64,000 nt of DNA from Bacillus mojavensis RO-H-1 = KCTC 3706. Lineage in GTDB: Bacteria > Bacillota > Bacilli > Bacillales > Bacillaceae. Shown piece after piece: positions 32,281 to 50,768 of this stretch (position 1 is its first letter; the number at the start of each line of letters is the position of its first letter). The stretch lies in NCBI RefSeq assembly GCF_000245335.1, contig NZ_JH600280.1, forward strand, positions 124,001 to 188,000, given 5' to 3'. The translations under genes were made by a program, and so were the position numbers. The notes under the pieces are model-generated. The model ran no database searches. It was given only the letters and a program-made list of their open reading frames with translations, and was not told the DNA's origin.

Positions 32281-32478
32281 GAAAGAAGGTGATCCCATAT
32301 CCACTAACAATAAACCCAACAGATTAGTCTCCATACTTACTCCAGTACGCCCACAACCCTGTAGACTGGTACCCCTGATGAGAAGAAGCCTTCAAAAAAG
32401 CAAAACGTGAAAACAAGCCGGTTCTTGTCAGCATCGGCTATTCAACATGTCATTGGTGCCATGTTTGATTGAATAACC
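32281..32478 (+). pseudogene. yyaL 5' fragment A, decayed
   Basis: The segment starts with the yyaL ribosome site GAAAGAAGGTGATCCCAT, but the start codon is ATA and about 16 bases are missing in the region for LIAEKSPY. The rest follows yyaL through [21 protein letters not shown]. It ends exactly after the CHWCH codons and continues TTTGATTGAATAACC, which is not yyaL. The stretch from here to 32682 contains no gene apart from a possible terminator (AGTGGACTGAAAGGTC region). Confidence 0.85.
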
Positions 32479-32682
32479 ATTTCTTCATTCAGATGACGGA
32501 ATGAAAAAAGAGTAGACCTTTCAGTCCACTCTTAAATAAATTTTATTTCTCTCGTTCTATATATTCTTCTTTTGTTGTTTATTGCCCATAAAATTTAACC
32601 TCTAATACTTTGCCATTAGTTGTATTCCCTTTAAAAAAAGAGGAGCTACATCCTTACATGTTATTAGAGCGAGCCTATATTG

Positions 32683-34857
32683 CTACATACTGATTCGGTG
32701 TTTTTGTTCATTCTCTATCTCGGGCTGTATCTCCTTTGTTAGTTGATGACCCTCTATATCTACATTCGGAATGATTTTGTCTAACCACTTTGGTAAATAC
32801 CAAGCTGCATTCCCCATCAACTTCATAATACTTGGAATGAGTGTCATTCTTACAATAAATGCGTCAAATAATACACCAAAGGAAAGAGCTAATCCATTTG
32901 CTTTGATAGAAGCTTCACCAGCAAAGATAAACCCTGCAAAGACGAATATCATGATTAGTCCGGCTGCGGTGACAACAGGTCCACTGTGTTTTAATCCAGC
33001 TTGAATCGCTTGTACTGGATTCTTTGTTTTTACATATTCTTCACGCATTCTGCTTACAAGGAATACTTGATAATCCATCGCTAAGCCAAAAAGAATACCA
33101 ATCGTTAAAATAGGCAAAAACGCGAGTATCGGCCCTTTTTCAGGTATATTGAACAAGTCAATTAAGTTTCCATCCTGTAACACAAATACACAAATCCCAA
33201 GAGTTGCTGTCATTGTTAATATGAAACCTGCTACAGCAACAAGAGGTACTAGCAGCGAACGGAATACGATTGTCAGTAATATAAACGCAAAACCAACAAT
33301 GAGTAAAGCAAATACTGGTATTGCATCATTAAGGCGATCTGAAATATCTATATTCACTGCCGTGGATCCAGTTACGAGCAAATCTACCCCGTTTTGATCT
33401 GCTAAGCTGCGCACATCTTGTACCAAATCCTTAGTAGCTTTATCGTTTGGACCTGTTGTAGGAACAACCGTAATAATAGCAAAATTGCCTTTTGCATTAG
33501 GCATTGCAGGAGTAACACTTGCTACATGGTCTAAATCCTTAATTTCTTTTACTGCATCTGCGAATGCATCAGTCTTATTTTCTGTAACACTTGTGGCATC
33601 CGCCACTATCGTTAATTTGCCATTAAATCCTTCTCCAAACCCTTCGGCAAGCAAGTCATAAGCTCGGCGCTCGGGATTATCCTTAGCTTTCATTCCTGCA
33701 TCAGGTAAACCTAGCTCCAAATGCATAGATGGGATACTAATGACTAGCAAGATGAGAATACTAAATACACTTAGAAGAATAGGGTACTTTGTGACAAAGC
33801 GTCCCCAGAAATTTGTTTCAGCGCTTTGTATTTCTTTTTTCTTGTTTGCTTTCGGAATCATGCGTTTCCCTGCTATTGATAAAACGGCAGGCACTAATGT
33901 AATTGAAGCTAATACAGCCATGAGCACACTGAGCCCTGCTGTTAGCCCCATTGCAGACATAAAAGGAATATTAACGACAGTCAATCCGCAAAGTGCGACA
34001 ATAACTGTGAGCCCGGCAAAAACGACAGCACTCCCAGCTGTTCCCGTAGCTCTCGCAATTGATTCATTTTTTTGTATACCTTCACCTAAAAACTGGCGGT
34101 GTTTCGAAAAAATAAACAAGGCATAATCAATACCAACTGCGAGGCCAATCATTCCGGCTAATGAAAGACTGACGGAGGCAATATCAAACACTTGTGTTCC
34201 AATCAAAGTCAGCCCAATGCTTACACCTAAACCAATAAGTGCAGTTAAAATCGGTAAGCCTGCTATTAATAAAGATCCAAATGTAATAGCTAGAACAACA
34301 AAAGCCAAGACAATACCGACTATCTCTGATACACCGCCTATCTCCATCTCGGCTCCTGGTATATCTCCACTTAACTCCGTTTGTAATCCTTCATCATCAG
34401 CAATGGACAAACTATCTTTCACATGTTTAATAGAGTAATCTTTTATATCATCTGCTGATGATTTGTATTTGATATCAGCATAAGCTACTGTCCCATCTTT
34501 TGCGATCGTTCCTGCATGAAAAGGACTTGCAATCGAATCAATGGAATCGTCTTTATTCATTTCCTTTAATGTATTCTCTATTGCTTTTTTTGCTGATTTT
34601 GCAGTAAGTTTCTCCCCATCGTTAGCACCGAATATGACCCGTATGCTCCCTTTATCAGGACCATGAGGAAATTCTTTATTGATCACCTTCATTGCTTTTT
34701 CCGAAGGCGTGTCTGGTATTGACATATCCTCAGAAAAACTGGGTTTTAATATGCCGGCTGCCCCTATCGCTGCAATCAACACAACGATCCACGCACATAG
34801 TACTTTAATGCGATGGCGAGCGACCCACCCGCCTAATTTATATAACATTCTTGACAT
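32683..34857 (-). CDS. MMPL/RND-type exporter homologous to YdfJ
   Basis: A 724-residue membrane protein with the MMPL layout twice over: one helix, a large extracytoplasmic domain, then five to six helices. Marker motifs are GLAVGIDYALFIFSKHRQ and GLAMDYQVFLVSRMREEY, the conserved Asp-Tyr in the proton-relay helix. It resembles YdfJ of B. subtilis, probably a drug or lipid exporter. The downstream-facing YdfHI-like two-component genes lie immediately upstream and probably control it. Start chosen at the second ATG (MSRMLYK), six bases from AGGAG. Confidence 0.88.
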   Translation of the reverse strand: MSRMLYKLGGWVARHRIKVLCAWIVVLIAAIGAAGILKPSFSEDMSIPDTPSEKAMKVINKEFPHGPDKGSIRVIFGANDGEKLTAKSAKKAIENTLKEMNKDDSIDSIASPFHAGTIAKDGTVAYADIKYKSSADDIKDYSIKHVKDSLSIADDEGLQTELSGDIPGAEMEIGGVSEIVGIVLAFVVLAITFGSLLIAGLPILTALIGLGVSIGLTLIGTQVFDIASVSLSLAGMIGLAVGIDYALFIFSKHRQFLGEGIQKNESIARATGTAGSAVVFAGLTVIVALCGLTVVNIPFMSAMGLTAGLSVLMAVLASITLVPAVLSIAGKRMIPKANKKKEIQSAETNFWGRFVTKYPILLSVFSILILLVISIPSMHLELGLPDAGMKAKDNPERRAYDLLAEGFGEGFNGKLTIVADATSVTENKTDAFADAVKEIKDLDHVASVTPAMPNAKGNFAIITVVPTTGPNDKATKDLVQDVRSLADQNGVDLLVTGSTAVNIDISDRLNDAIPVFALLIVGFAFILLTIVFRSLLVPLVAVAGFILTMTATLGICVFVLQDGNLIDLFNIPEKGPILAFLPILTIGILFGLAMDYQVFLVSRMREEYVKTKNPVQAIQAGLKHSGPVVTAAGLIMIFVFAGFIFAGEASIKANGLALSFGVLFDAFIVRMTLIPSIMKLMGNAAWYLPKWLDKIIPNVDIEGHQLTKEIQPEIENEQKHRISM

Positions 34858-34920
34858 CATAATCTCCTTTCAACACATTGCTTGATAACATTCCCCCTAA
34901 TTGTAGTTCATAAGGAAATG

Positions 34921-34950
34921 AAAAAAACGTACATGCGGGCATGTACGTTT
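34921..34950 (-). terminator. Terminator of the two-component operon
   Basis: AAACGTACATGC pairs with GCATGTACGTTT and is followed by TTTTTTC on the minus strand. The exporter gene downstream must therefore have its own promoter. Confidence 0.9.
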
Positions 34951-34973
34951 GGGCAACTTTTAAATAACCTGTG

Positions 34974-35615
34974 TTATAAATCTAAAGTTAAAATACCTCT
35001 CTGCATGGCAATTGTAACTGCTTCCGTTCTAGAATCCGCTCCCAATTTATTATAAATGGACGTTAGTCTTGACTTCACAGTTCTCTCTGAGATTCCTAAA
35101 TCAAAGGCTATCGCTTTGCTTTTGAGACCTTTTGCAATCGCCTTTAGAACAACTATTTCCTTTTCCGTTAACTGAGTATCGCTGCTTGGTTTCTTCATTC
35201 TTTCAAATTGAATTTCTTGAAAACGTTTAAGAATATCAGGCTGCAGCAGCACTTCTCCTCTTAATGCTGCATCCATTGTATGAAATAGGGTTTCTGAGCT
35301 CGTATCCTTCAACAGATATCCTTTCGCCCCTAATTCAATTCCCTCAATCATCAAGTGATCTTCATTATAAGTAGTCAAAATAATAATGGGTATGTTGTGT
35401 TTTTCTTTTATCTGTTTAATCGCTTCTAACCCACTCATTTTTGGCATGTATAAATCCATAAGAATGATATCTGGCTTTAATTCATCTGTAAGATGGACCG
35501 CCTTTTTTCCATTTTCCGCCTCTCCGATTATTGTGTAATTATCATTCGTCTCAATTAACAGCTTGAGACCTTCTCTCACAACCAGATGATCATCAACGAT
35601 TAAAACCTTATTCAT
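34974..35615 (-). CDS. NarL-family response regulator homologous to YdfI
   Basis: A 213-residue regulator. The receiver domain begins MNKVLIVDDHLVVREGLKLL, with phosphoacceptor Asp in PDIILMDLYMPKMSG (about residue 54) and the switch Lys in KGYLLKDTS. A LuxR-type HTH follows (TEKEIVVLKAIAKGLKSKAI, SERTVKSRL). It matches B. subtilis YdfI closely. The ATG overlaps the kinase gene by eight bases and has GGGAGAG 7 bases upstream. The target is probably the adjacent MMPL exporter, as YdfHI controls ydfJ in B. subtilis. Confidence 0.9.
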   Translation of the reverse strand: MNKVLIVDDHLVVREGLKLLIETNDNYTIIGEAENGKKAVHLTDELKPDIILMDLYMPKMSGLEAIKQIKEKHNIPIIILTTYNEDHLMIEGIELGAKGYLLKDTSSETLFHTMDAALRGEVLLQPDILKRFQEIQFERMKKPSSDTQLTEKEIVVLKAIAKGLKSKAIAFDLGISERTVKSRLTSIYNKLGADSRTEAVTIAMQRGILTLDL

Positions 35616-36828
35616 CTTCAATCTCTCCCTGATTTGACAAAATTATCTCGATTTGTGTGCCTATTGTTTTTGTACTCTTTATATCGAATTGGCCTTTCAT
35701 TGCTCTGACGCGTTCTTGTATACCAAGAAGTCCATAATGACCTCTCTTTTTCCTGCCTCTTTCAACATCAAATCCTTTTCCATTGTCTCTGACGGTTAAA
35801 TGGATGTTTTCTTTCTCATCCCAAACTGATACCCATATGGATTCTGCTTCAGCATGTTTTGCTGCATTTGTAAGACATTCTCCTATGATGTAATAACAAT
35901 TTTCAGCAGTACGAACATCAGGCAATTGAGTTAATCTGTAGTCTAAAAAACAAGACAGACCTGTTGCATCTTTAAAATGATCCATTTGTAAGGTAATTCT
36001 TTCTTTTAAAGAATCGATTTCTTCTGATTTGCTGCGAAGATTGTCAATAGCTGAACGTGCATCAGCTAATGTGCTTTTCACTCTATTCATAGATTGTTGA
36101 ATGATTTCTTTTGCCCTATCTGTGTTACCTTTCGATATATGAACATTAATAGCATCCAACTGCATATTTAAACTAACCAATCCTTGTGCAAGGGTGTCAT
36201 GTAAATCCCGAGCCATACGCTGTCTTTCGTTTTGCAACGTCAGCTGTTCTACTTGTTGATGAGCAAGCTCCAGCCTTTCAAGAGTCAGCTGCGCTTTTAT
36301 TTTTTCATCAACTTGCGCAAAAAATGTGGCAGCATAAGTGATAATGACAACCATGATAGGTACAGCGATAACAAGAAAATGCAAAAACTCGCCTTTGTGA
36401 ATCTGATATATCGCATTGGCTGATATCAGAAGTAATAGATATACAATGAGGAACGCTCTTCTTCTATCTGCCATTCCTATAATCTGCCCAATCAAAAATG
36501 CATAAAGGCCAATGATGACCAGCATTAAGAAGCCCGTCATGACATTAGCAAGTGCATAAGTAATCAAACCTTGCAGTACAAAATATAGAATGACCTTATT
36601 CTTAACCCATCGATATGAGTGCCAATGCAGCAGAGTAAAAATAGCGATTAATATTGTAAACACATGAAGCAATAAAATAGACCAGCTCCCAGAAACAAAC
36701 TGCAGCACGATAGAGGCTATATAGATCATGAGAATAAAAGCTAAGCCTGGTACTCTGAGAGCAAGCATATTTAATGCCCGCCTATCTCGTGAAAAGTAGT
36801 TTTTATCAAAAGGTTTTCTTCGAAACAT
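35608..36828 (-). CDS. Sensor histidine kinase homologous to YdfH
   Basis: A 406-residue HisKA_3-type kinase. Six hydrophobic helices (about residues 25-170) form the sensor part, with hardly any extracellular domain, as in intramembrane-sensing kinases. The dimerisation segment carries ERQRMARDLHDTLAQGLVSL (phosphorylated His near 208). The ATPase part ends with ENIHLTVRDNGKGFD and GHYGLLGIQER. It is transcribed with the response regulator. Confidence 0.9.
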   Translation of the reverse strand: MFRRKPFDKNYFSRDRRALNMLALRVPGLAFILMIYIASIVLQFVSGSWSILLLHVFTILIAIFTLLHWHSYRWVKNKVILYFVLQGLITYALANVMTGFLMLVIIGLYAFLIGQIIGMADRRRAFLIVYLLLLISANAIYQIHKGEFLHFLVIAVPIMVVIITYAATFFAQVDEKIKAQLTLERLELAHQQVEQLTLQNERQRMARDLHDTLAQGLVSLNMQLDAINVHISKGNTDRAKEIIQQSMNRVKSTLADARSAIDNLRSKSEEIDSLKERITLQMDHFKDATGLSCFLDYRLTQLPDVRTAENCYYIIGECLTNAAKHAEAESIWVSVWDEKENIHLTVRDNGKGFDVERGRKKRGHYGLLGIQERVRAMKGQFDIKSTKTIGTQIEIILSNQGEIEDE

Positions 36829-37008
36829 ATTGCATCACTTCCTTTCCTTTGACAGTATAATCACAAAGGATTCACAATAAAAATAGGGACAATCCGGTCA
36901 TATTTGTCATCTTATCATAAGAGCCGTCAGGCATTTCATTTATCACCCAGCAAGGCAAGAAGGAAAACCCAACAAGATGCGGACTTATCTAGTATGCAAG
37001 ATGTGCCT

Positions 37009-37048
37009 CAACGTACATAAGGATATGCCCTTATGTACGTTTTCTATA
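37009..37048. terminator. Hairpin upstream of the two-component operon
   Basis: AACGTACATAAGG pairs with CCTTATGTACGTT, followed by TTC. It resembles the terminator at the other end of the operon in its AACGTACAT arm. The rest of 36829-37195 holds nothing else recognisable. Confidence 0.6.
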
Positions 37049-37195
37049 TTCAATTTTAAAATTAAAATATATGAATCAGAGCTGAAAAAACATTTGAAAA
37101 ACGGTCCAAAATCCTCAAAGAAGTAAAGCAGAAGGGCTCTACAAAATGACCCATTAAAGAATAAAGAAACCTTATAGAGAAAAGAGGAACAAGGT

Positions 37196-37366
37196 ATGTA
37201 TTGGTTTTTTGGTGTTTTATTGTACCTTCTCATCGGTACTTGTATATTCATAGGAGTCATCAAAGACACTCAATCAGGTTCTTGGTTACTACTTGCATTA
37301 GCAGCTCCACTCATCATCTTTGGCTATCCTTACTTTTGTTCAAAGCAGCTTCTTTCCAAAAGATAA
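37196..37366 (+). CDS. Small two-helix membrane protein, 56 residues
   Basis: ATG is preceded by AGAGGAACAAGGT. The product MYWFFGVLLYLLIGTCIFIG ... LLLALAAPLIIFGYPYFCSK has two hydrophobic helices joined by a short VIKDTQSGS loop. I do not recognise it. It stands alone on the plus strand between the two-component genes and yyaL fragment B. Confidence 0.6.
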   Translation: MYWFFGVLLYLLIGTCIFIGVIKDTQSGSWLLLALAAPLIIFGYPYFCSKQLLSKR

Positions 37367-37527
37367 AGATATATATTGTGATTACAGAGTTATTGAAAAC
37401 GATTAAAAGGTTTGAACATAATGTTAAAATAACATTTCAAACTCAAACACATTTACCTTCAAGAGTGCCATTTTCGTTAGAATAACCAAACAAGTAATTT
37501 TGCAGTCCGCACTTTATGAAATAATTA

Positions 37528-37648
37528 TTGATTGGTTCCCTTGGTGAAGAAAGAAAGCATTTGAAAAAGCAAAACGTGAAAACAAGCTGGTTCTGGTCAG
37601 CATCAGCTATTCGACTTGTCATTGGTGCCATGTCTATTAAAGTAACCA
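37528..37648 (+). pseudogene. yyaL 5' fragment B, decayed
   Basis: The readable part corresponds to [19 protein letters not shown] and [15 protein letters not shown], with the first 20 or so codons lost and TGG to TGA or indel damage. It ends after the CHWCH codons and continues TCTATTAAAGTAACC, the same type of flank as fragments A and F. Confidence 0.82.
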
Positions 37649-37751
37649 AATAGACAAGCCAAGAATCGTAGACTACAAATCCCGTGATTTTTTCAAAAGT
37701 GACATTAGAGAGAAGAAATTAACCGTAAGTAGTTGGAGGGATGATTGAAGT

Positions 37752-38108
37752 ATGTTAACAAGAGAAGATATCTTTAAACACGTCAAAGAAAAGTACGGTT
37801 CATCGCCTGATTATCCGTGGGAGGAATACCCAAACTATGCTTCTTTGAGACATACATCAAACAAAAAATGGTATGGTCTTATCATGAATGTTCTCCCAGA
37901 AAAATTAGGCTTGGAAGGACATGGCGAAATAGATATTCTGAATTTAAAATGCCCCCCTGACATAAGTGATGGCTTAAGAAATGGGGAAAATATCTTACCT
38001 GGATATCATATGGATAAGGAACATTGGATTTCAATTGTTTTAGAACGGACAGATCCAGAAAGCGAAATCTATAACTTAATCGAACAGAGCTTTCATTTAA
38101 CCAAGTGA
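37752..38108 (+). CDS. yyaQ: YyaQ, MmcQ/YjbR-family protein
   Basis: A 118-residue cytoplasmic protein of the MmcQ/YjbR fold (a CyaY-like DNA-binding-type domain). It has PWEEYPNYASLRHTSNKKWY and the C-terminal GYHMDKEHWISIVLE, the conserved 'NK.HW..V' family mark. Function unknown. In B. subtilis 168 yyaQ is also followed by yyaP, so this cassette keeps the local gene order. GGAGGG lies upstream. Confidence 0.85.
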   Translation: MLTREDIFKHVKEKYGSSPDYPWEEYPNYASLRHTSNKKWYGLIMNVLPEKLGLEGHGEIDILNLKCPPDISDGLRNGENILPGYHMDKEHWISIVLERTDPESEIYNLIEQSFHLTK

Positions 38109-38267
38109 AGATAAAGAGTGTTCCTGCTAATCGAGCTGCAAAGAGTAGTGGGCACTTTCATTTTAGGATATTGTTCTTCACTCTGTCCACAAACGCAACT
38201 TAATCCATCTGGTGTGTGAATAGAAGAAGAATTTCTACCAACTTCTTATGTAAAAGGATGAATAGTT

Positions 38268-38834
38268 ATGACAAATAACTTAAAACAGAGAAGAATAATT
38301 TTAGATTTAGCAGTTACTCTAGATGGTTTTATTGAAGGGAAAAATGGAGAAGTTGATTGGTGTATTATGGACCCTGATATGGGGTTTACTGGTTTCTTAA
38401 ATCAAATTGATACTATTTTATATGGTAGAAAAAGCTACGATTTATGGGGACAGTATATCCCCAAAAAAGAAGACCCTGATATGGAAAAGGAAATTTGGAA
38501 ATTGGTTCATAGTAAAAAGAAATATGTTTTTTCCAGAACACAACATGAGATTGATAATCAAGCAATATTTATAAATGATAATATTCTTGAAGAAGTAAAT
38601 AAATTAAAGAAAAAGCCTGGTAAAGACATCTGGCTATATGGTGGAGCGAGTCTCATTACAACTTTTATAAATTTGGGGCTTGTTGATGAATTTAGATTAT
38701 CTATTCACCCTGTTGTTTTGGGAGAAGGAAAACCGTTGTTTATTGATTTAAAACAGAGGATAAATTTAAAAATGCTAAATACAAGAACATTTTCCTCTGG
38801 CGTTGTGCAAATCGTTTATCATTGGAATGGCTAA
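38268..38834 (+). CDS. yyaP: YyaP, dihydrofolate-reductase-fold (RibD C-terminal type) protein
   Basis: This 188-residue oxidoreductase-like protein has RRIILDLAVTLDGFIEGKNG at the N-terminus and the NADPH-loop motif DIWLYGGASLITTFINLG, then LVDEFRLSIHPVVLGEGKPL. The physiological substrate is unknown; the family resembles the riboflavin biosynthesis reductase domain. AAAAGGATG precedes the ATG. It follows yyaQ by 160 bases. AT-rich codon use. Confidence 0.88.
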   Translation: MTNNLKQRRIILDLAVTLDGFIEGKNGEVDWCIMDPDMGFTGFLNQIDTILYGRKSYDLWGQYIPKKEDPDMEKEIWKLVHSKKKYVFSRTQHEIDNQAIFINDNILEEVNKLKKKPGKDIWLYGGASLITTFINLGLVDEFRLSIHPVVLGEGKPLFIDLKQRINLKMLNTRTFSSGVVQIVYHWNG

Positions 38835-38972
38835 AAACCTTTCAGTCCAAAGTATATATTGTTAGGTAACACTCGACAGTAATTTTTCTTATTGAACTAA
38901 AGAGGCGTCCATAAATAATGGGTTCCCCTTAATACTATGGAATGATCAACATCAAATTTAACAGAGCTAAAA

Positions 38973-39353
38973 GTATCCATTCTCCTGTAATAAAAGAAAA
39001 GAAAACTGAAAAGGACGGTGTCTTCCTTCATTAACATAATTAAACATTATATTATTTTCCTTCTCCCTCTTTTAAGTAAATCGGCTAAGCTTTATATTTA
39101 TTTATAATTATTGTGGTAGCCTAAATGTAATTAAAACAAAAGAAAGAAGGTGATCCCATGCCCACTAACAGTAAACCCAATAGATTAATCGCTGAGAAGT
39201 CACCATATCTCCTTCAACATGCTCACAACCCCGTAGACTGGTACCCTTGGGGAGAAGAAGCCTTCGAAAAAGCAAAACGCGAAAACAAGCCGGTTCTGGT
39301 CAGCATCGGTTATTCGACTTGCCATTGGTGGCATGTCTCTTAGATTACCCATT
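38973..39353 (+). pseudogene. yyaL 5' fragment C with its upstream region
   Basis: This is the best-preserved extra copy. About 185 bases before the start codon resemble the region before the complete yyaL (48511 onward). The frame then runs 61 codons from [20 protein letters not shown] to STCHWWHVS and a stop. The second Cys of the CxxC motif is Trp. The flank after the motif is TCTCTTAGATTACCC. It has a ribosome site and could be translated, but the peptide is only the first part of the thioredoxin-like domain. Confidence 0.88.
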
Positions 39354-39472
39354 AAAACTCTGTATACTTTTACGAACTCATTATTAGAAATTATTGCAAA
39401 GTGTTAAAGGAATTGACTGTATATATATATTCCTTCCGAAAGTGGTGATTATTTAAATAAGGAGTGAATAAA

Positions 39473-39506
39473 GAAAAGCCTCCTTTTAAATAAAGAAGGC
39501 TTTTAA
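39473..39506. terminator. Terminator of the MFS gene
   Basis: AAAAGCCT pairs with AGGCTTTT with an inner CTTT/AAAG, with T-rich flanks on both strands. Confidence 0.75.
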
Positions 39507-39553
39507 GTTTAATCCTCTGGTTATAAAAATATCTAACGTTCTTTTATCCCCAG

Positions 39554-40804: not shown

Positions 40805-41003
40805 TCTGTTTCCTCCTAGAATTTGAAAAATCATGTAATGTAGTTTATTCATTATAAATTACTGTAAAGATGAATAATGAATAAAGAAAACATTTGCAGT
40901 TGAACAATCTTTATATATTATAATATATTTAATGCTCAATAATGTATAATATAGTATAACAACTGGATTTTGTCTATCCTCAAATAAAGAACTATTTTAA
41001 ATA

Positions 41004-41056
41004 AATACAAGGAATGCCCCAATCCACCTAATGGATCGGAGCATTCCTTGTATTTG
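41004..41056 (-). terminator. Long hairpin terminator after the XRE-cupin gene
   Basis: ATACAAGGAATGC pairs with GCATTCCTTGTAT, and inside it ATCCA pairs with TGGAT. A T-rich stretch follows on the minus strand. Confidence 0.82.
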
Positions 41057-41075
41057 GATAAGCAAAGAAAAAAAT

Positions 41076-41645: not shown

Positions 41646-42006
41646 TTTAGCCACCCTTTGCAATATCATGAGAAAACATATATTAAAATAATCATTAATG
41701 TTTTAATTATTATAATGAATAAAATACTAATAAACAAACATTTGTATAATATATTATACAATAAAGCTGATTATATGTAGTAAAATATATTTCAATGGCT
41801 CAAAAGTTGCGTTGTGTGCATAAAATCCACGTTTCTTAATGTTATTTTTGATATCGTGCATAAACGATTAATTTTGATATATCTAGAACCCTTGGTATAT
41901 ATGGACACTCCTCTCTTGATGGTTCCTATCATGGTTATGTTAACTAAATTTGTATAGAGGATACTTAGAGAATATACATGAAATATAACATTATAGGGGG
42001 AATGTG

Positions 42007-43173: not shown

Positions 43174-43199
43174 AAGATCTCCTTATGAGGTCTTTTTAA
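43172..43199 (+). terminator. Terminator of the MFS exporter
   Basis: AAAGATCTC pairs with GAGGTCTTT around CTTAT, followed by TTT. Confidence 0.75.
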
Positions 43200-43274
43200 T
43201 TTATTATCAAACACTGTTATTAAGTAGAAAGACCAAGATGTCCTACATAGGTTTGAAAGAGAGTCTACTTCACA

Positions 43275-43764
43275 TTGGTCTCTCGTAAAAACATGAGGTT
43301 GTGGCTATCTTCTAATGAAAGGAACGGACTGTTATATATACCTCTAATAGGAGCGTTGCCACACATTTCACTTACCATTACGATGGTTATCGGTGCTATT
43401 AGTTTAATAGTAGTTTCCTTATTTACATCCAAACCTGTTTCTTTATCGAACATCCCGATTGGAGTTTGGGGGGGCAATTGCCTTTATGGCTTTCTTTACA
43501 AGTGTTTTGGGTTACCTATGGTGGAATCAGGGGATTAAGGAGATTGGGGCAGGAAAAACATCTTTATTTTTCAACCTTGTTCCCGTTGTAACGATGATTA
43601 TTTCATTTGCCGTTGGAACACCGATAAAGGTATTTCAAGTTATTGGGGCTGTGTTGGTTATATTAGGGGTTTTAACTGCTTCGGGGGTAATACGTATTCC
43701 TAAGACAATACTAAAGAACAGTCAGCTATATAAAATAGGGATTATTTTTGAAAAAATGTGTTAA
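43275..43764 (+). pseudogene. EamA/DMT-type transporter remnant (C-terminal half, frameshifted)
   Basis: Two overlapping frames together read as the second half of an EamA-family permease: LTITMVIGAISLIVVSLFTS, then IPIGVWG, and after a shift AIAFMAFFTSVLGYLWWNQG, IKEIGAGKTSLFFNLVPVV. The shift falls in a run of seven G where six would keep the frame. The N-terminal half is missing. In B. subtilis 168 yyaM, an EamA protein, lies near yyaL, so this may be its remnant or that of a relative. Confidence 0.72.
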
Positions 43765-43784
43765 GTTAAATATACACTAATTAT

Positions 43785-44000
43785 AGGAAGAAGGTGATCC
43801 CATGCCAAACAAAAGTGAACCCAATAGATTAATCGCTGAGAAGTCTCCTTATTTACTTCAACATGCTCATAACCCTGTGGACTGGTTCCCTTGGGGAGAA
43901 GAAGCATTTGAAAAAGCGAAACGCGAAAACAAGCCTGTTCTCGTATCTATTGGGTATAGCTAACCTTGGCTAATCTAAAGAACATGCCATTGGTGGCATA
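43785..44000 (+). pseudogene. yyaL 5' fragment D (divergent copy)
   Basis: After GGAAGAAGGTGATCCC an ATG opens 53 codons, [20 protein letters not shown] to PVLVSIGYS and a stop. Several synonymous and non-synonymous differences from the complete gene (Tyr to Phe in DWFPWG, AAAGCGAAACGC spellings) suggest another donor species. Between the codons for Tyr-Ser and the TGCCATTGGTGGCAT motif there are about 21 extra bases (TAACCTTGGCTAATCTAAAG). These recur in repeat E. The stretch from 44001 to 44145 contains an ACAACAACT/AGTTGTTGT hairpin and no gene. Confidence 0.83.
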
Positions 44001-44142
44001 GGATCTTTTTTATATTAAATGTACACAACAACTTCACCCAAATACAAAAACGAATGGGAACTATATCCCAGTTGTTGTTGTTTTATTTACAGTCTAAACA
44101 AAGTAAAGAAAGTATTACTTGAATAACTTCTACTCTCCAAAC

Positions 44143-44190
44143 GATAGCTAACCTTGGCTATTCAAAAGAACATTGTCATTTATGCACATC
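44143..44190 (+). repeat. yyaL-site repeat E (second copy of the fragment D end)
   Basis: GATAGCTAACCTTGGCTA, then TTCAAAAGAACATTGTCATT and TATGCACATC, repeat the end of fragment D (43955-44000) with about ten differences. Only the motif region is present, without the rest of the yyaL 5' end. Together the two form direct repeats about 190 bases apart. Confidence 0.7.
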
Positions 44191-44205
44191 AGTAATTTAT
44201 CATAG

Positions 44206-45042
44206 CTAGCCTTCAATTAAACGTTTTAACTTAAGCTCAGTTTCAGTATCCTCAACTGGGGTATAGACGCTGCATCTTAAATCAGTATCCCCATGCACTT
44301 GTAATGAAGTAAGATTAAACAACATTTTACCTACCTTAGCATGACGAAACTCAATTAATACTTCAGGAGCAGAGCTTATCTCATTTTCATTCCAAATTTT
44401 ACGAAACTCAGGATATGCCTGTTCCATTTCTTGTATAAATTGCTCATACCAGTCATCAGCCACATACTGTCCATAATACGTTCTAAATATTGCGATATAT
44501 CCTCTAACAAAATGCTCCCAATTCACAGCTAAACTTTTAAATTCCTTTCTTGCGAATAGTAAGCGTATTATATTCCTTTCTGCCGGGTTGATTTGTTCAA
44601 AATCCAAAAATACATTAGCTGCTGCTTGATTCCACCCAACAATCTGACTTCTTCTATCTGATATAATCGTTGGGCAATAACGAAGTTCCTGCAACATTTT
44701 TACTAAAGCTGGACTGATTTCCTTCTCCTTCTCATTTATAAAGGGTTGTTTCACTCCTTCCTCTAACGCTAGAGCATACAAATATCTCCTTTCATCGTTA
44801 TTTAATTGTAATGCTCGAGAAATAGCATCTAATACCGAAGTAGATACTTTTATATCTCTGCCTTGTTCTAACCATGTATACCAAGTAAGACTTACACCGG
44901 CTAGTTGAGCCACTTCTTCTCTTCTTAGTCCTGGTGTTCTTCTGCGGGTTCCTACAGGTAAACCAACCATTTGGGGAGTAATTTTTGAACGTTGGTTCTT
45001 TAGAAATTCTGATAAAGCTTGAAGTCTTGTTTCAGGTTTCAT
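44206..45042 (-). CDS. XRE regulator with MmyB-like ligand-binding domain
   Basis: This 278-residue protein has an HTH_31 domain (GTRRRTPGLRREEVAQLAGV and SLTWYTWLEQGRDI, residues about 30-65), followed by a PAS-like MmyB domain. Its marks are PTIISDRRSQIVGWNQAAAN, ERNIIRLLFARKEF and FRHAKVGKMLFNL. Proteins of this kind bind fatty-acyl or similar ligands in the crystallised members and usually regulate an adjacent gene. Here that gene is the divergent FabF, a plausible lipid link. GGGAGATCTTA precedes ATG. Confidence 0.88.
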   Translation of the reverse strand: MKPETRLQALSEFLKNQRSKITPQMVGLPVGTRRRTPGLRREEVAQLAGVSLTWYTWLEQGRDIKVSTSVLDAISRALQLNNDERRYLYALALEEGVKQPFINEKEKEISPALVKMLQELRYCPTIISDRRSQIVGWNQAAANVFLDFEQINPAERNIIRLLFARKEFKSLAVNWEHFVRGYIAIFRTYYGQYVADDWYEQFIQEMEQAYPEFRKIWNENEISSAPEVLIEFRHAKVGKMLFNLTSLQVHGDTDLRCSVYTPVEDTETELKLKRLIEG

Positions 45043-45145
45043 TAAGATCTCCCTTTAAAATAGTATTAATTATACTAGGATAAACAACAACTTGTAATAG
45101 GATAACACAATAGCTAAAGTTAATAAAAACGAGGAGGGAATGATC

Positions 45146-46378
45146 ATGAAAAGAGTTGTCATTACTGGAATGGGAGTTATTTCTCCACTAGGAAATGATG
45201 TAAACAGCTTTTGGAATCAACTAGTTAAAGGACACTCGGGAATATCTCTCATTGATTCTTTTGATACTGCTGATTATAAAACAAAGATAGCTGGAATCGT
45301 TCGTGATTTCGATGCAGATGAAATATTGGGGAGAAAAGAAGCAAAACGATTAGATCGTTTTAGTCAGTTTGCCTTAGCAGCAGCCGAACAAGCATTAGAA
45401 CATTCACAATTACAGTTAGATCATGTTGATCTCGAACGTTTAGGGGTATATGTTGGTTCAGGAATCGGAGGCATACAATCACTTGTTGATAATGTGAATG
45501 TATTAAATAAACGAGGTCCCGCGAGAGTAAGCCCCAGCCTTGTACCAATGATGATTTCTAATGCAGCTGCGGCCCAAATAAGCATAAGATTAGGAGCACA
45601 AGGACCATCATTATCACCAGTCACAGCCTGTTCAATCGGGAACACCTCTATTGGTGAAGCTTTCAATGCTATCCGAAATGATGAAGCAGATATTATATTT
45701 GCCGGTGGAGCAGAAGCTGCAATCACACAGATATCTTTGGCTAGTTTTGGAAACGCCCATGCACTATCTACAAGAAACCAAGATCCAAGTCGAGCCAGCC
45801 GTCCATTCGATACAGATAGAGATGGCTTTGTTATGAGTGAAGGCGCAGGTATCTTAGTTTTAGAATCATTAGAAAACGCTATTCTTAGAGATGCGCCGAT
45901 ATTATGTGAAGTAGTGGGGTACGGAGCTAGTTCAGATGCTCATCATATGGTAGCATCACACCCAGAAGGTAAGGGTGCCTACTTAGCCATGAAAAAAGCA
46001 TTGAGAAATGCAAATATATCAACAGGTGAAATTGATGTTATTAGTGCTCATGCAACAAGTACACAAGTAGGTGATCGTTCAGAAGTTCTAGCTATTAAGA
46101 AATTATTTGGGGAACATTCACATGAAATTCCAACAACTGCAAACAAGTCAATGACTGGGCACATGCTTGGTGCTGCTGGCGGAGTAGAAGCAATTGCTTT
46201 AGTGGAAAGTTTGAGACGAGGAATTATTCCACCAACTATTAATGTAGAGAATCAAGATCCAGATTGCGACTTAGATGTTGTATCAGAAGCGAGACACCTT
46301 CCATTGAAATATGGGCTATCAAATTCTTTTGGTTTCGGAGGACATAATTCAGCAATTGTGTTAAAGCATTACGATTGA
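45146..46378 (+). CDS. Accessory beta-ketoacyl-ACP synthase II (FabF-like)
   Basis: A 410-residue KAS II enzyme for chain-elongating Claisen condensation in fatty-acid synthesis. The Cys-His-His triad is present: Cys in PVTACSIGNTSIGEA (near 162), His in ISAHATSTQVGD (near 300), His in NKSMTGHMLGAAGG (near 337). The context around the Cys (CSIGNTS rather than CATGTN) and HATST (instead of HGTST) are unusual. AT-rich codon use separates it from housekeeping FabF genes. GGAGGG is 8 bases from the second ATG, which I use. Divergent from the MmyB-type regulator. Confidence 0.9.
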   Translation: MKRVVITGMGVISPLGNDVNSFWNQLVKGHSGISLIDSFDTADYKTKIAGIVRDFDADEILGRKEAKRLDRFSQFALAAAEQALEHSQLQLDHVDLERLGVYVGSGIGGIQSLVDNVNVLNKRGPARVSPSLVPMMISNAAAAQISIRLGAQGPSLSPVTACSIGNTSIGEAFNAIRNDEADIIFAGGAEAAITQISLASFGNAHALSTRNQDPSRASRPFDTDRDGFVMSEGAGILVLESLENAILRDAPILCEVVGYGASSDAHHMVASHPEGKGAYLAMKKALRNANISTGEIDVISAHATSTQVGDRSEVLAIKKLFGEHSHEIPTTANKSMTGHMLGAAGGVEAIALVESLRRGIIPPTINVENQDPDCDLDVVSEARHLPLKYGLSNSFGFGGHNSAIVLKHYD

Positions 46379-46416
46379 AGACCCATCTTTATAGGTCAAA
46401 GGTTAAATAATGAATC

Positions 46417-46446
46417 TATCAAGGGTTTATAACCCTTGATTTTCAT
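46417..46446 (+). terminator. Terminator of the fabF-like gene
   Basis: ATCAAGGGTT pairs with AACCCTTGAT around TAT, followed by TTTC. Confidence 0.85.
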
Positions 46447-46514
46447 TATGAAATACCTCACAGACAAATGATGACGGGCCTCAGCTATCTGGTATATTAA
46501 ATAGAGGAAAGAGA

Positions 46515-46783
46515 ATACTTAAAAAAACGATATCATTGGGAGTTGTAGCACCTTTTGCCAGCGCTTTAACTACAAACAAACTAGAGAAATAATCAAAGTT
46601 TTGAAGTTAAAGGGACTGTTTTTTCTCAAATGAAAAATGACGCAGGTACAGGCTTAGAGGAAAATGGGTCCATTAGATGAAGTACATGATACAGTAACAG
46701 ACTATCTTGATAAGTATGTTTGGCATGCAGTTGCTAGTTCTTGTGGATATATTGCACAAGGTGTTGTATATGCAATTCTCTAA
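46515..46783 (+). pseudogene. Decayed secreted peptide gene (bacteriocin-like precursor)
   Basis: A GAGGAAAGAG site is followed by ATA instead of ATG, then LKKTISLGVVAPFASAL, a signal-peptide-like start. Two further pieces follow in shifted frames: VKGTVFSQMKNDAGTGLEEN, and then PLDEVHDTVTDYLDKYVWH with AVASSCGYIAQGVVYAIL and a stop. The C-terminal piece is hydrophobic and Gly/Ala-rich with one Cys, as in membrane-active peptides. It lies 18 bases before the small membrane protein gene, suggesting a toxin-immunity pair. The family is not recognised. Confidence 0.5.
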
Positions 46784-46800
46784 AGAAAGTGTTGATTAAT

Positions 46801-46980
46801 TTGAACAAAGAGTCATTTAAATTCATACTAATTTTATTTGCAGTTTTTGCTGTCATTCAGGTGACAAATGAAATTAACTTTACTAACTATTGGTTTATAG
46901 ACAGAGTTATTCAATTTATAATTTGTATTATTGTTTTTTTAGTTTTGACTTATATATTCCCAGTTAAAAAAAACAAGTGA
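46801..46980 (+). CDS. Small two-helix membrane protein (copy 2 of a duplicated gene)
   Basis: A 59-residue protein with helices at about 8-25 and 35-54 and the motif QVTNEINFTNYWF. It is alike over its whole length to the gene at 31129-31308, including the TTG start and the GAAAGTGTTGATT leader. The preceding decayed secreted-peptide gene suggests an immunity role. This is inferred from the arrangement only. Confidence 0.62.
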   Translation: MNKESFKFILILFAVFAVIQVTNEINFTNYWFIDRVIQFIICIIVFLVLTYIFPVKKNK

Positions 46981-47037
46981 ACTTAGGATAGAGCTCTATT
47001 TTTTATTTTGTAATACTTGTATTTAAAGTGAGATTAT

Positions 47038-47085
47038 AGGCTATTCAACTCGGCATTGGTGGCAGGTTTATTAAAATAACCAATA
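47038..47085 (+). repeat. yyaL-site repeat F
   Basis: GGCTATTCAACTCGGCATTGG with GGCAGGTT resembles the yyaL codons for [10 protein letters not shown], here degraded (GYSTRHWWQV). The flank TATTAAAATAACCAATAC matches those of fragments A and B. None of the earlier yyaL codons are present. Confidence 0.72.
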
Positions 47086-47162
47086 CATCATTCAGAGATT
47101 CAACTTATTTACTTTCACAAACCAATTCTATAAAATGGGTTTTTAGGGATATTATCTAAGCA

Positions 47163-47190
47163 AAAAAAGACAACGTATCGTTGTCTTTAC
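47163..47190 (-). terminator. Hairpin terminator
   Basis: AAAGACAACG pairs with CGTTGTCTTT around a 3-base loop, followed by seven T on the minus strand. It fits the end of the decayed gene to its right. Confidence 0.78.
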
Positions 47191-47224
47191 TCATTATAAT
47201 TATTTTTTTATAATATTATCTATA

Positions 47225-47403
47225 TTACCAGTCTAGGTTATCCTTTGATAATATACCTTGTAGTCTAAATATGAGATTGATCGCTAAATCTATATCTAAA
47301 TTGTCGTCTTTAAATTATATGAGAGTCTATTTATATCAGTTACTGTATTTATGTCTAGTATGTTAATTTCCACCAAATCCTCTAACTTGTGAGTCTTTTT
47401 CAT
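47225..47403 (-). pseudogene. Small hypothetical gene with a frameshift
   Basis: On the minus strand ATG opens MKKTHKLEDLVEINILDINT and VTDINRLSYNLK, then meets a stop. In the next frame the text continues DDNLDIDLAINLIFRLQGIL, SKDNLDW and a stop, 35 bases before a strong terminator. The two pieces probably formed one protein of about 58 residues. Not recognised; size and acidity would suit an antitoxin or immunity protein. No clear ribosome site is seen. Confidence 0.42.
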
Positions 47404-47547
47404 GTTCTGACATGCAGATGGGAGAAGAACTTGCCACTTACGTCTTGTTTTCCCCTCAATCGGCCGTAGCGAAACCCATGCTGCAAAGCTGCACTTTTGT
47501 CGAGATGTTCTCTCAGCCTGAGGGGCTAAAAGCCCCCGTTGTCTTAT
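47404..47547. other. GC-richer insert of unknown origin
   Basis: This stretch is visibly richer in G and C than the AT-rich DNA on both sides and contains a GGGGCTAAAAGCCCC hairpin. No start codon with a ribosome site is seen on either strand. It ends at the stop codon of the LCI-like gene, so it may have truncated that gene. Confidence 0.4.
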
Positions 47548-47829
47548 CTACCTTGCGCTTTCATAATATGCATAATTTCCAGCTTTGCCTTTAAAGAAAA
47601 ATGTAGTACCAAACCGATCAAAACTATTTGCAAAAACGCCATTATCTGAATACATACATAATCTATTACTTGCGCCTTTAAATGGAGTTATAGAACAATC
47701 TACAATTGAAGTAGCCTTCGTACGCATATCCCCATCCGTTGAATCATTTGAAGCAAGAGCTTGTCCAGAAACAGGTAAAAGCAATCCTAAAGATAAAGCA
47801 ACTCCAGTAATTGTCCTTCTCAATTTCAT
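47548..47829 (-). CDS. Secreted LCI-like antimicrobial peptide precursor (possibly truncated)
   Basis: A 93-residue product with a typical signal peptide (MKLRRTITGVALSLGLLLPV ... ALA, about 27 residues), a propeptide-like DSTDGDMRTKATS region and a C-terminal part, YSDNGVFANSFDRFGTTFFF then KGKAGNYAYYESAR. The order NG-FA-SF-G-T-FFK resembles the Bacillus LCI peptide (SPNGNFAASF...). That peptide continues about ten residues beyond the end seen here. GGAG lies 9 bases from the ATG. I rank the family assignment as tentative. Confidence 0.55.
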   Translation of the reverse strand: MKLRRTITGVALSLGLLLPVSGQALASNDSTDGDMRTKATSIVDCSITPFKGASNRLCMYSDNGVFANSFDRFGTTFFFKGKAGNYAYYESAR

Positions 47830-48159
47830 GTGAATCATCTCCATTCCCAAATTTTGTAATACATCTTAATTATAAGAGGAATAACTCTCCATTAAAAGGG
47901 TCTTGGATACTGTATTTGTAATAAAAAGGAATTTAAGTAAATCAATACTCACCGTTTCACTTATTGATTCTATCATTTATAAAATAATTTACAGGATTTA
48001 GTTTGGTTTGAACGTAAAATCAAATTGTCACGATTCTGAAATGAAGTGATACGAAGGAGTCAGAAGTGTTTTCTCTCATAGTATATATGTTTCTAACAAG
48101 CTAATTTAGTTTTGAAGAATCTCAATTATTATGACATAAAAAAAGGGAGAGTGAGAAGG

Positions 48160-48432
48160 ATGAAAAAGCTTTTTTCTAGCTTAATTGTATTGTTGGTCTT
48201 TTCTGTAGTGGTAACCTCGGCAACCACAAGTGTATATGCTGTATCAGCTAATAATGTTAGAAAAAATGCGCTAGGTGATAACGTATCGGGAAGCCGAAAA
48301 GTCAACGGACATATTTATGGTGACAAATTTTATACAGTCTCCGGTAAAAGCAAGACATTTAAAGGTGCACAGTTAAGATTTACGCCTCATGGAAGTGCTA
48401 CTTATTCAGGAAACGGCGGGTTAGATTGGTAA
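48160..48432 (+). CDS. Small secreted protein of unknown family
   Basis: A 90-residue protein with a clear signal peptide (MKKLFSSLIVLLVFSVVVTS through VYA, about 28 residues) and a mature part rich in Gly, Ser and Lys: KNALGDNVSGSRKVNGHIYG, then RFTPHGSATYSGNGGLDW. No Cys is present. GGGAGAGTGAGAAGG precedes the ATG, and a strong terminator follows. In this cassette of secreted peptides a bacteriocin-like role is possible but not shown. Confidence 0.65.
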   Translation: MKKLFSSLIVLLVFSVVVTSATTSVYAVSANNVRKNALGDNVSGSRKVNGHIYGDKFYTVSGKSKTFKGAQLRFTPHGSATYSGNGGLDW

Positions 48433-48472
48433 AAGAATTATTTAAAAGGCTCAATCATAGAGAGAGCCTCAG

Positions 48473-48500
48473 GCTGCCGAGAAAATCTCGGCAGCTTTTA
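48473..48500 (+). terminator. Terminator of the secreted-protein gene
   Basis: GCTGCCGAG pairs with CTCGGCAGC, followed by TTTTATT. Confidence 0.92.
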
Positions 48501-48698
48501 TTCCTTAAAATATCTATTCTCCTGTAATAAAATAAAAAAAAGACTTAACAGGACGGCGTCTCCATCCATTAACATAATTAAACACTATACTATATTTCTA
48601 TCTCACTCCTTTAAGTAAATCGGCTAATCTTTGTATTTATTCATAATTATTGTGGTAACCTAAAGGCAAATAAATAAAAAAAGAAAGAAGGTGATCCC

Positions 48699-50768
48699 AT
48701 GCCCACTAACAATAAACCCAATAGATTAATCGCTGAGAAATCACCATACTTACTTCAACACGCCCACAACCCAGTTGACTGGTACCCCTGGGGAGAAGAA
48801 GCCTTCGAAAAAGCAAAACGCGAAAACAAGCCGGTTCTGGTCAGCATCGGCTATTCGACTTGCCATTGGTGCCACGTCATGGCTCATGAAAGCTTTGAGG
48901 ACGAGGAAATTGCCAGCCTTCTTAACGAACGTTTTGTTGCGATTAAAGTGGATCGGGAAGAGCGCCCTGATGTTGATTCTGTTTATATGAGAATCTGCCA
49001 GCTGATGACCGGACAGGGCGGCTGGCCGCTGAATGTGTTTATCACGCCTGATCAGAAGCCGTTTTATGCGGGTACATATTTTCCGAAGACGAGTAAATAT
49101 AATCGTCCGGGTTTTGTGGATGTGCTTGAGCATCTTTCAGAAACGTTTGCAAACGATCGTGAGCATGTCGAGGATATTGCAGAAAACGCCGCTAACCATT
49201 TACAGACCAAAACAGCGGCTAAAACAAGTGAGGGGTTGAGCGAATCAGCGATCCACCGGACATTCCAGCAGCTTGCCAATGGTTTCGATACAATCTACGG
49301 CGGCTTCGGACAGGCGCCGAAATTTCCTATGCCTCATATGCTCATGTATTTGCTCCGTTATTATCACACGACGGGGCAGGAAAACGCTTTGTACAACGTC
49401 ACGAAAACACTGGACAGCATGGCAAATGGAGGCATCTATGACCATATCGGCTATGGGTTTGCCCGCTATTCGACCGATGATGAGTGGCTCGTCCCTCACT
49501 TTGAAAAAATGCTGTATGACAATGCGCTGCTGCTGACAGCTTATACCGAAGCTTATCAAGTCACGCAAAACAGCCGGTACAAAGACATTTGTGAGCAGAT
49601 TATTACGTTCATTCAACGGGAAATGACCCATGAAGACGGGAGCTTTTTCTCGGCTTTAGACGCGGATACAGAAGGCGAAGAAGGAAAGTACTACGTGTGG
49701 TCAAAAGAAGAGATCTTGAAGACGCTCGGAGAGGATCTCGGTACGCTGTATTGCAGCGTGTATGACATCACAGAAAAAGGCAACTTTGAGGGCAAAAACA
49801 TTCCCAACCTCATTCATACCAAGCGGGAACAAATCAAAGCAGATGGCGGATTAACCGAAGAAGAGCTCAGCCGCAAGCTTGAAGATGCAAGACTAAAGCT
49901 GTTAAAGACACGTGAAGAAAGAACGTATCCGCATGTCGATGATAAGGTGCTGACGTCATGGAACGCCCTGATGATTGCGGGTCTTGCTAAAGCGGCAAAG
50001 GTATTCCAGGAACCCCAATACCTCAGCTTGGCTGAAGACGCTATCACCTTTATTGAAAACAATGTAATCATCGACGGCCGGGTGATGGTTCGGTATCGTG
50101 ACGGCGAAGTGAAAAACAAAGGATTTATCGACGATTATGCCTTTCTCTTATGGGCTTATCTCGACCTCTATGAAGCCTCGTTTGATCTATCATATTTAGA
50201 AAAAGCGAAGAAGCTGTCAGAAGATATGATCGATTTGTTTTGGGACGAGGAGCATGGGGGGTTCTACTTTACCGGACACGACGCAGAAGCGTTAATTGTC
50301 AGAGAAAAAGAAGTGTACGATGGCGCCGTGCCTTCAGGAAACAGCGTGGCAGCCGTTCAGCTTCTGCGCCTCGGGCAAGTCACAGGTGATTTGTCGCTGA
50401 TTGAAAAAGCCGAAACGATGTTTTCCGTGTTCAAGCCTGAAATTGAGGCATACCCGAGCGGCCACTCTTTCTTTATGCAAAGTGTGTTAAAACATATGAC
50501 GCCTAAAAAGGAAATTGTGATTTTTGGGCGCCCGGACGATCCAGACAGAAAACAAATCACAAGCGCGCTTCAACAGGCCTTTATTCCAAACGATTCCATC
50601 CTGGTGGCAGAGCATCCCGACCAGTGCAAAGACATTGCGCCATTCGCGGCTGACTATCGCATCATAGACGATCAAACAACCGTGTATATTTGTGAAAATT
50701 TCGCCTGCCAGCAGCCGACAACAGACATCGAAGAAGCCTTACAAACATTAAAAAGCAGCAGGGATTAA
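48699..50768 (+). CDS. yyaL: YyaL, thioredoxin-domain DUF255 protein
   Basis: A 689-residue cytoplasmic protein with an N-terminal thioredoxin-like domain (DUF255, SPATA20 family) and a C-terminal six-hairpin glycosidase-like domain. The N-terminal part contains [20 protein letters not shown] and the redox-type motif [15 protein letters not shown] at about residues 52-66. [20 protein letters not shown] follows, and later [17 protein letters not shown]. The biochemical role is unknown. GAAGGTG precedes the ATG. The first 57 codons and the upstream region recur as fragments across the island to the left, so the codons for CHWCH appear to be an insertion site. Confidence 0.95.

Follow-up and report, generated by a model that had tools for sequence, protein, structure and literature searches.

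The gene yyaL, which encodes a DUF255/Thioredox_DsbH protein (PF03190), is preceded in Bacillus mojavensis by a series of displaced copies of its own 5' end with unrelated genes between them, and this array, together with its counterparts in the genus, is the subject of the present analysis. The stretch analysed, referred to here as the window, is 64,000 nucleotides long (G000:C4:124001-188000) and belongs to a genome of 3.96 Mb. The G+C content is 0.36 in the array, compared with 0.44–0.47 in the surrounding stretches compared. A first-pass annotation, made from the letters of the window, had listed six pieces of the yyaL 5' end left of the complete gene. Comparison of the window with itself and with yyaL recovered copies A–D and the short piece F, so that five of the six stand, whereas piece E, at 44.15 kb, is a lone arm remnant (Table 1).

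In the self-comparison, site A is 83% identical to the gene over 32264–32464, with the ATG start changed to ATA and 11 bases deleted. Site B is 86% identical over 37528–37634, and site C 89% over 38967–39337, a stretch that includes the 195 bp preceding the yyaL ATG. As had been claimed for the pieces in general, these three stop at the codons for Cys-His-Trp-Cys-His (CHWCH), and their arms past the core read TGTTTGATTGAATAACCA, TCTATTAAAGTAACCA and TCTCTTAGATTACCCA, respectively. Site D, 86% identical over 43785–43944 (about 43742–43957 under a laxer alignment), reaches the same core via a different left arm of the type called P below, GGCTAATCTAAAGAACATG; its early end is only apparent, because its last ~50 bases are this other arm before the same core. 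Piece E (GATAGCTAACCTTGGCTATTC...) resembles the arm at the end of D. At site F, read by eye, about 30 bases of the 5' copy are left (47036–47067, 81%), and the left arm, GGCTATTCAACTCGGCAT, the core and the outer arm, GGTTTATTAAAATAACCA, are complete. Neither large serine recombinase (LSR) nor tyrosine recombinase matches were found in the window, in keeping with the earlier remark that it holds no integrase.

Table 1. Attachment sites, yyaL and cassettes of the array, in window positions. B, B', P and P' are the half-sites described in the text.
Feature	Position	Strand	Description
Site A	32264..32481	+	Displaced yyaL 5' end and core, crossover TG 32454-32455; attL-type B-P'
Site B	37528..37650	+	Only the second half of the 5' end, and core, TG 37623-37624; B-P'
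Site C	38967..39352	+	5' end and 195 bp of upstream region, core TG 39326-39327; B-P'
Site D	43785..43997	+	Stop-class 5' end (53 codons, then TAA), P-type left arm; core TG 43991-43992
Piece E	44144..44190	+	Isolated P-arm remnant, degenerate core
Site F	47036..47096	+	Left arm, core TG 47057-47058, outer arm; read by eye, below profile-search detection
Complete yyaL	48699..50768	+	DUF255/Thioredox_DsbH (PF03190); intact attB, crossover TG 48867-48868, His56/Trp57 codons
Cassette 0	32456..37624		MMPL exporter 32683-34860 (-), response regulator 34974-35621 (-), histidine kinase 35608-36828 (-)
Cassette 1	37625..39327		YjbR-family protein 37752-38108 (+), RibD_C reductase 38268-38834 (+)
Cassette 2, composite	39328..43992		MFS transporter 39554-40852 (-), HTH/cupin-type regulator 41076-41669 (-; by eye), MFS transporter 42004-43173 (+)
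Cassette 3	43993..47058		MmyB-like regulator 44206-45042 (-), FabF-type ketoacyl synthase 45140-46378 (+)
Cassette 4	47059..48868		LCI-fold protein 47548-47850 (-), small protein with signal-like start 48112-48432 (+)

A shared break point in Bacillus genomes

The yyaL 5' end was matched in 41 of 44 genomes of the genus, and the sample consisted of yyaL and up to about 18 kb upstream from these 41, or less where contigs end. A profile of the 5' end, searched on both strands, gave 115 sites in the fetched loci, comprising 41 genes and 74 displaced copies or fragments, all on the yyaL strand, with loci away from yyaL being oriented by the hit itself. Among the displaced hits, 59 of 74 reach position 187–195 of the 195-position model, i.e., the core (51 of the 56 scoring at least 40 bits), and 15 end short of position 187. 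At least one displaced hit is present in 28 of the 41 yyaL loci (22 at 40 bits or more), a count that scores zero for G007 and G010, where the copies lie on a neighbouring fetched locus, and for G023, represented by only 3 kb at a contig end. The break common to most displaced 5' ends is the TG of CAT-TG-G, at codons 56/57 in the CHWCH motif, and break-aligned copies mostly run into CAYTGRTG and then into new DNA. What seems to be a second class of break, at 48841, reflects an alternative 5' end in which another arm precedes the same core. All 47 displaced cores carry TG, a result partly built in, as the core finder penalised cores without TTG or CTG; weak exceptions are G005 (TA) and piece E of the window (TT).

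Empty sites, meaning fetched yyaL loci in which the gene start is whole and no displaced hit occurs, were seen in ten genomes (G017, G018, G020–G022, G024, G028, G032, G033 and G042), with the caveats that G032 has a copy on another contig and that G042 offers only 9 kb upstream. The comparison of upstream regions that had been proposed as a check has yielded one dominant break site, with empty loci and arrays both found; the displaced 5' ends are real and genus-wide, and they appear to be attachment sites rather than random debris.

A single tandem duplication of the yyaL 5' end, with random deletions and insertions afterwards, would account for truncated copies such as B and F and for the 15 displaced hits that end short of position 187, and break points unrelated to the CHWCH codons had been named as its expected signature. 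Over 41 genomes, however, one break point dominates, element arms follow it, cassettes recur and LSR elements occupy the site, as described below; a duplication is very improbable and was discarded on account of the shared break point.

Displaced yyaL 5' ends also occur on contigs other than that of yyaL, namely at L073 and L074 (G003, C3 and C20), L077 (G016, C28), L078 (G032, C12) and L080 (G023, C7). Another locus away from yyaL, L075 (G015:C3:30001-50000), bears at oriented positions ~5900–10260 a gene that by eye resembles the HTH regulator of the LSR element described below, and a stop-class yyaL start; it may mark a related element, or what is left of one, at a second site.

The recombinase, its carrier and the attachment sites

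A recombinase on an element that terminates in a copy of the yyaL 5' end, which the first-pass annotation had proposed to look for, was found in three relatives of the licheniformis group, B. changyiensis CLL-3-40 (G006), B. glycinifermentans GO-13 (G007) and B. haynesii NRRL B-41327 (G010), in which matches of an LSR family search adjoin yyaL. The LSR open reading frame (ORF) begins 67–69 bp right of the crossover in all three, the proteins are of 504 aa with 76–87% identity to that of G006, and the latter is composed of Resolvase, Recombinase and Zn ribbon domains. Whole close LSRs are confined to these three among the 44 genomes, with LSR remnants lying within the arrays of G003 and G036, and a search of GTDB contigs with two peptide patterns returned the same three only. 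The family-wide LSR search added one further relative, at 33% (G064). No close LSR was met in phage records (all 465 under 60%, the best 29% among the matches listed), in plasmids (all under 60%, 21–25% among the matches listed) or in IMG/VR (23–29%, six loci), and phages gave no match to the yyaL 5' copy. Plasmids as carriers of the 5' copy were considered and rejected, the five matches, in Paenibacillus, Thiothrix and Nonomuraea, including four annotated as thioredoxin domain-containing protein. Away from yyaL, two LSR-family hits stand next to each other near the end of the chromosome record in G012 (G012:C1:4173143-4174997) and in G027 (G027:C1:4372939-4374792), possibly as a ccrAB-like pair.

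Between crossovers, the LSR elements measure 18.2 kb (G006), 20.2 kb (G007) and 21.7 kb (G010), and they are 73–86% identical along most of their length. Each lies between a left junction, made of an older yyaL 5' end and an element arm, and a right junction, made of another yyaL 5' end with an element arm and the rest of yyaL. Of ten proteins scanned in the G006 element, two match nothing; the matches of the others are to NlpC/P60 (together with a lysozyme-like domain), AAA_10, TcpC, a rolling-circle-type relaxase, HerA/FtsK-like, DUF961, HTH_3 and peptidase M78. Counterparts in G035, at 535–541 kb, share 86% identity with the VirB4-like protein and 82% with the relaxase; we take G035 to be B. 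subtilis 168 and this position to be that of the integrative and conjugative element (ICE) ICEBs1. A second copy of both proteins is found in G007, at 429–436 kb of the same contig.

ICEBs1 integrates with a tyrosine integrase at a tRNA-Leu gene. The yyaL element resembles it in the conjugation module and in the HTH_3 and peptidase M78 pair, presumably the counterpart of ImmR/ImmA. Unlike ICEBs1, it uses an LSR at yyaL, and none of the eight PF00589 (tyrosine recombinase) matches in G006, the genome searched for them, falls on C7, the contig of the element. Given the identity of the conjugation proteins to those of G035 and the LSR in place of a tyrosine integrase, the carrier is apparently a sibling of ICEBs1 with another integration module, which brings an ICEBs1-type conjugation module together with a different integrase.

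Many displaced copies continue past the core with one of two related arms, recognised by eye as about TGTCTNTTARARTAACCA or YGTTYRTATAGCTACCC, and the alternative 5' ends bear the reverse complement of such an arm left of the core, e.g., GGGTAGCTATACGCACATG. Therefore, four half-sites can be distinguished: B (the yyaL codons), B' (the rest of yyaL), P and P'. By their arms, displaced copies are mostly B-P' (attL), split genes P-B' (attR) and whole genes B-B' (attB), in a scheme that takes B as the default and in which a few copies are classed differently between two classifications. When the ends of the LSR elements are joined, they form a dyad about a central dinucleotide, of the ~50-bp kind expected of an attP, with 19, 20 and 21 matches of 24 positions in the three loci; the control maxima are 15, 14 and 14, and none of 2840 control positions per locus reaches the element value. 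Compared with the P profile, the left B arm matches at shift 0 over its inner nine bases and only at shift +5 over its outer nine, with a score of 3.7 bits, the next best shift scoring -3.5. In the model of serine integrases set out in PMC3783163, the zinc-domain motif lies 5 bp nearer the centre in attB than in attP.

The yyaL 5' end is thus probably (about 80%) the chromosomal attB of this LSR family, the arrays being explained by LSR insertion and later conversion, and a break made at serine-integrase attachment sites appears well supported by the sequences. The earlier proposal that yyaL is an integration target with serial insertions agrees with the one break site and the LSR elements found at it. 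By this account, the LSR of the ICEBs1-type element would carry out the exchange at the central TG of CAT-TG-G, and cassettes would either have been inserted in trans by an LSR, present now or earlier, or have stayed behind after the loss of its own genes. With each insertion, the old 5' end would move outward and another would be delivered, so that a P-type arm would leave yyaL split after codon 53 and an in-frame or B-type arm would leave it whole. Homologous recombination would then turn P ends into B ends, making yyaL whole again and providing a new attB for a further insertion. Such a mechanism points to a recombinase/site pair that is native to Bacillus.

Fate of yyaL and growth of the arrays

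The view that insertion regenerates the target is supported in part only, regeneration being not automatic. Among 41 genomes, classed partly by a tree read without support values, yyaL has an ordinary, B-type start in 28 and a foreign in-frame start in two, whereas in 11 its start ends after 53 codons and the gene is split. The two foreign starts (G043, G019) read SCCHWC and are closest to each other (94%), the displaced copies of their own loci being 75% and 79% identical, and they seem to represent clean replacement of the 5' end. In all 11 split genes, the 5' ORF is exactly 53 codons long and a full 3' ORF of 629–633 codons follows. None of the nine testable split genes is closest to its own array, and their start therefore probably arrived with the element. 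Two of the 12 non-split genes fetched for comparison are broken further on, G002 (L109) and G019 (L110), the yyaL frame closing there at 249 and 111 codons from Trp57 despite an open 5' end; yyaL may be dispensable in these genomes.

Whether the split yyaL is still used is a question that these data raise. That the stop-class end leaves a working gene, through a two-part, re-initiated or translationally skipped product, would fit the preservation of both ORFs in all 11 and the ratios of nonsynonymous to synonymous change: the 3' ORF has a median dN/dS of 0.10 in split genes (55 pairs) vs 0.08 in 10 whole genes used for comparison (45 pairs), and the 53 codons have a pN/pS of 0.18 in 10 split genes vs 0.15 in 15 filed as whole, one of which, G004, is split. 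Classing for pN/pS took in 57 of the 115 copies, the others being without the 5' part or the start motif, and 16 stop-class copies were found with a pattern that contains the stop, so that the unbiased reading is the 11 of 11 genes. However, the displaced copies still open (16 of 24), presumably unselected, also have a low pN/pS, 0.23; conservation of the 53 codons is therefore no proof of use, and the ratio may be inherited. Moreover, none of the 11 split genes has an ATG, GTG or TTG in the 3' frame from the preceding stop up to Trp57. The spacer in stop-class copies is 11, 20 or 21 nt long, and a candidate programmed skip of the P arm, which would lead from the stop to ACA and restore ...GY(S/G)TCHWC, was rejected, since the length varies and no matched take-off and landing codons were seen. 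Furthermore, the DNA beside the split gene differs among the close relatives G010, G012 and G016, which argues for separate, perhaps recent, insertions. A working split yyaL is accordingly regarded as rather unlikely.

Cutting 28 loci, the window included, at their cores gave 56 segments, 51 of them 1.0–6.1 kb long, and 34 of the 56 fall into nine groups common between genomes (at least 350 shared bases beyond the 5' copy, chained, the largest group having 14 members). In this count, cassettes 3 and 4 of the window were treated as one, site F having been read by eye. Arrays other than the LSR-bearing ones, that of the window among them, consist of cassettes without a recombinase, some of which recur in other species and in other orders. 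The second gene pair of G035, which we take by position to be yyaN/yyaM, recurs in G036, G005, G009 and G016 at 93–96%; a G035 cassette with an exporter, presumably tetL-like, recurs in G011 (88%); and one cassette is 100% identical (rounded) across 2.5 kb in G016 and G007. The region of B. subtilis 168, named earlier as a place to look for the same fragments, has in G035 both cassettes and a displaced 5' end (L040, position 16389), which we assume to be yyaO of that strain.

The gene is a mosaic at the crossover, in that yyaL 5' and 3' identities correlate at 0.44 over 820 gene pairs, compared with 0.89 between two 3'-side parts; G004 and G016, for example, share 96% at the 5' and 70% at the 3' side, and G004 and G024 share 74% and 97%. 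Of 25 site pairs that agree in the left end of the cassette, 10 disagree in the class of the arm preceding the TG. For the second gene pair of G035, three genomes (G035, G036 and G016) show a B end and G005 shows a P end, and for the YjbR/RibD cassette the P end is seen in G035 and G036 and the B end in the window; the same cassette with either end in different genomes thus suggests conversion of P to B by homologous recombination.

Several results weigh against an LSR as the origin of the arrays. No LSR match was found by the family search in the window's own genome. The right B' arm is without the 5-bp shift, 20 of 44 right arms having been excluded from the P profile, and just 24 of the 44 displaced right arms look canonical. 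Cassettes starting GTGCCATAGGATC, GCCTGGGATAATC or ATAACAGACACC are without a clear P' arm and, in their present form, are perhaps not substrates of the LSR; B-type left arms are common among the cassette units, and such ends would yield no attP upon circularising. Of the 50 cassette pairs sharing more than the 5' copy, only 16 align on both sides to 10 bp or less from the crossover, or 21 with the limit set at 45 bp, the remainder sharing inner parts only, a pattern that degraded or composite cassettes would show but that other exchange would give as well. In the 25 site pairs, identity changes gradually across the TG, with no clean step (0.45–0.61 at -60 to -10, 0.72–0.77 at -10 to 0 and 0.71–0.87 to the right). 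Finally, yyaL appears repaired from its own array in only three of 22 genes, one of them a tie (three is reached in 3 of 200 shuffles), and in none of the nine stop-class genes tested. Repair from the own array as a general rule was consequently dropped, and the donor would mostly lie elsewhere.

These results lend weight to the spread of cassettes by natural transformation, an alternative that the first-pass annotation had itself raised as homologous recombination after DNA uptake and in which displaced 5' copies and the yyaL body would pair with incoming DNA and a recombinase would have made the first arrays only. The scarcity of whole close LSRs, with remnants in G003 and G036, the many shared cassettes with only inner parts in common and the eight of 11 B-type genes tested that are not closest to their own array all fit, and for cassettes with non-canonical right arms transformation is a serious rival. 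On the other hand, an exchange of this kind would occur at any point of the ~190-bp 5' copy and leave the TG-side arm linked to its cassette, at odds with the 10 of 25 pairs in which the class differs, and it leaves the dyad and the 5-bp shift unexplained; its chances are put somewhat short of even. The extended form of the LSR account, held tentatively and judged more doubtful than not, is that yyaL would be a genus-wide cassette platform, at which recombinase-less cassettes, each an attachment core with its own yyaL start, would be inserted in trans by the LSR of the ICEBs1 sibling, a P arm splitting the gene and B repair making a new attB. If true, such a ratchet would give Bacillus integron-like arrays in the absence of an integron, and it would account for yyaO and for the position of tetB(L) in B. 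subtilis 168. When the element is circular, the yyaL start that it carries would also stand directly upstream of the LSR gene and could express it.

Known systems and cassette contents

The SXT/R391 ICEs enter the 5' end of prfC with a tyrosine integrase and bring a new 5' end. Both there and at yyaL, the target is the 5' end of a protein gene and another 5' end is brought in; at yyaL, unlike SXT/R391, one class of 5' ends carries a stop codon and arrays form. Integron cassettes are likewise small, shared and aligned at one place, with a recombinase possibly acting in trans, whereas the yyaL recombinase is of the serine type and the array grows at a gene start. The staphylococcal cassette chromosome (SCC) uses the 3' end of rlmH and Ccr enzymes and is not known to carry conjugation genes. 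Its likeness to the yyaL arrays lies in serine recombinases and in composite arrays with recombinase-less units, as described in part in PMC3146451. The same paper reports islands of Dehalococcoides that stand in tandem at one gene, ssrA, with a CcrB-like serine recombinase beside attL, and discusses recombinase-less neighbours as cis-mobilizable elements with accretion (PMC3146451). Tandem units, serine recombinase and recombinase-less neighbours are common to both systems, but in Dehalococcoides the 3' end of ssrA serves as target, with a 20-bp repeat, whereas at yyaL it is the ~190-bp 5' end of a protein gene with its start codon. At yyaL too, segments bounded by attachment sites and devoid of a recombinase lie at the site of a related integrative element, as in cis-mobilizable elements and composite islands. 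Among the phage matches listed, the closest to the LSR is the serine integrase of SPbeta/phi3T, at 29% identity. SPbeta/phi3T are not known to form arrays. These are phages with a different target, SPbeta being placed inside the gene spsM according to PMC4191935.

In the open-access literature searched, no paper on yyaL as an integration site was found, as judged by titles and the beginnings of abstracts, and a search for yyaO/tetB/Bacillus gave no yyaO among the matches listed. The combination of an ICEBs1-type element, a protein-gene 5' end, recombinase-less cassettes and a target that is split or restored is, within these searches, new as a variant of known integrative-element arrays. With it, the variable region yyaT–yyaL of B. 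subtilis 168, which is among the bacteria studied most thoroughly, becomes a cassette array, in which we presume yyaO to be a cast-off yyaL start and tetB(L) and yyaP/yyaQ to lie inside cassettes.

As for the cassettes of the window, cassette 1 is also present in G036 and G035, and cassette 2 holds a ~380-bp remnant in common with the second gene-pair cassette of G035. Cassette 3 also occurs in G036 (94%), G011 (97%) and G004 (91%), so that the FabF-type synthase with its divergent MmyB-like regulator is common to four of the genomes read; as a guess, the spare FabF may protect against a natural inhibitor. Both small proteins of cassette 4, between site F and yyaL, are possible antimicrobial peptides. 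A 201-bp repeat (82%), which encodes a membrane-type protein of about 60 aa, occurs at 31112–31312, left of site A, and at 46784–46984, just left of site F.

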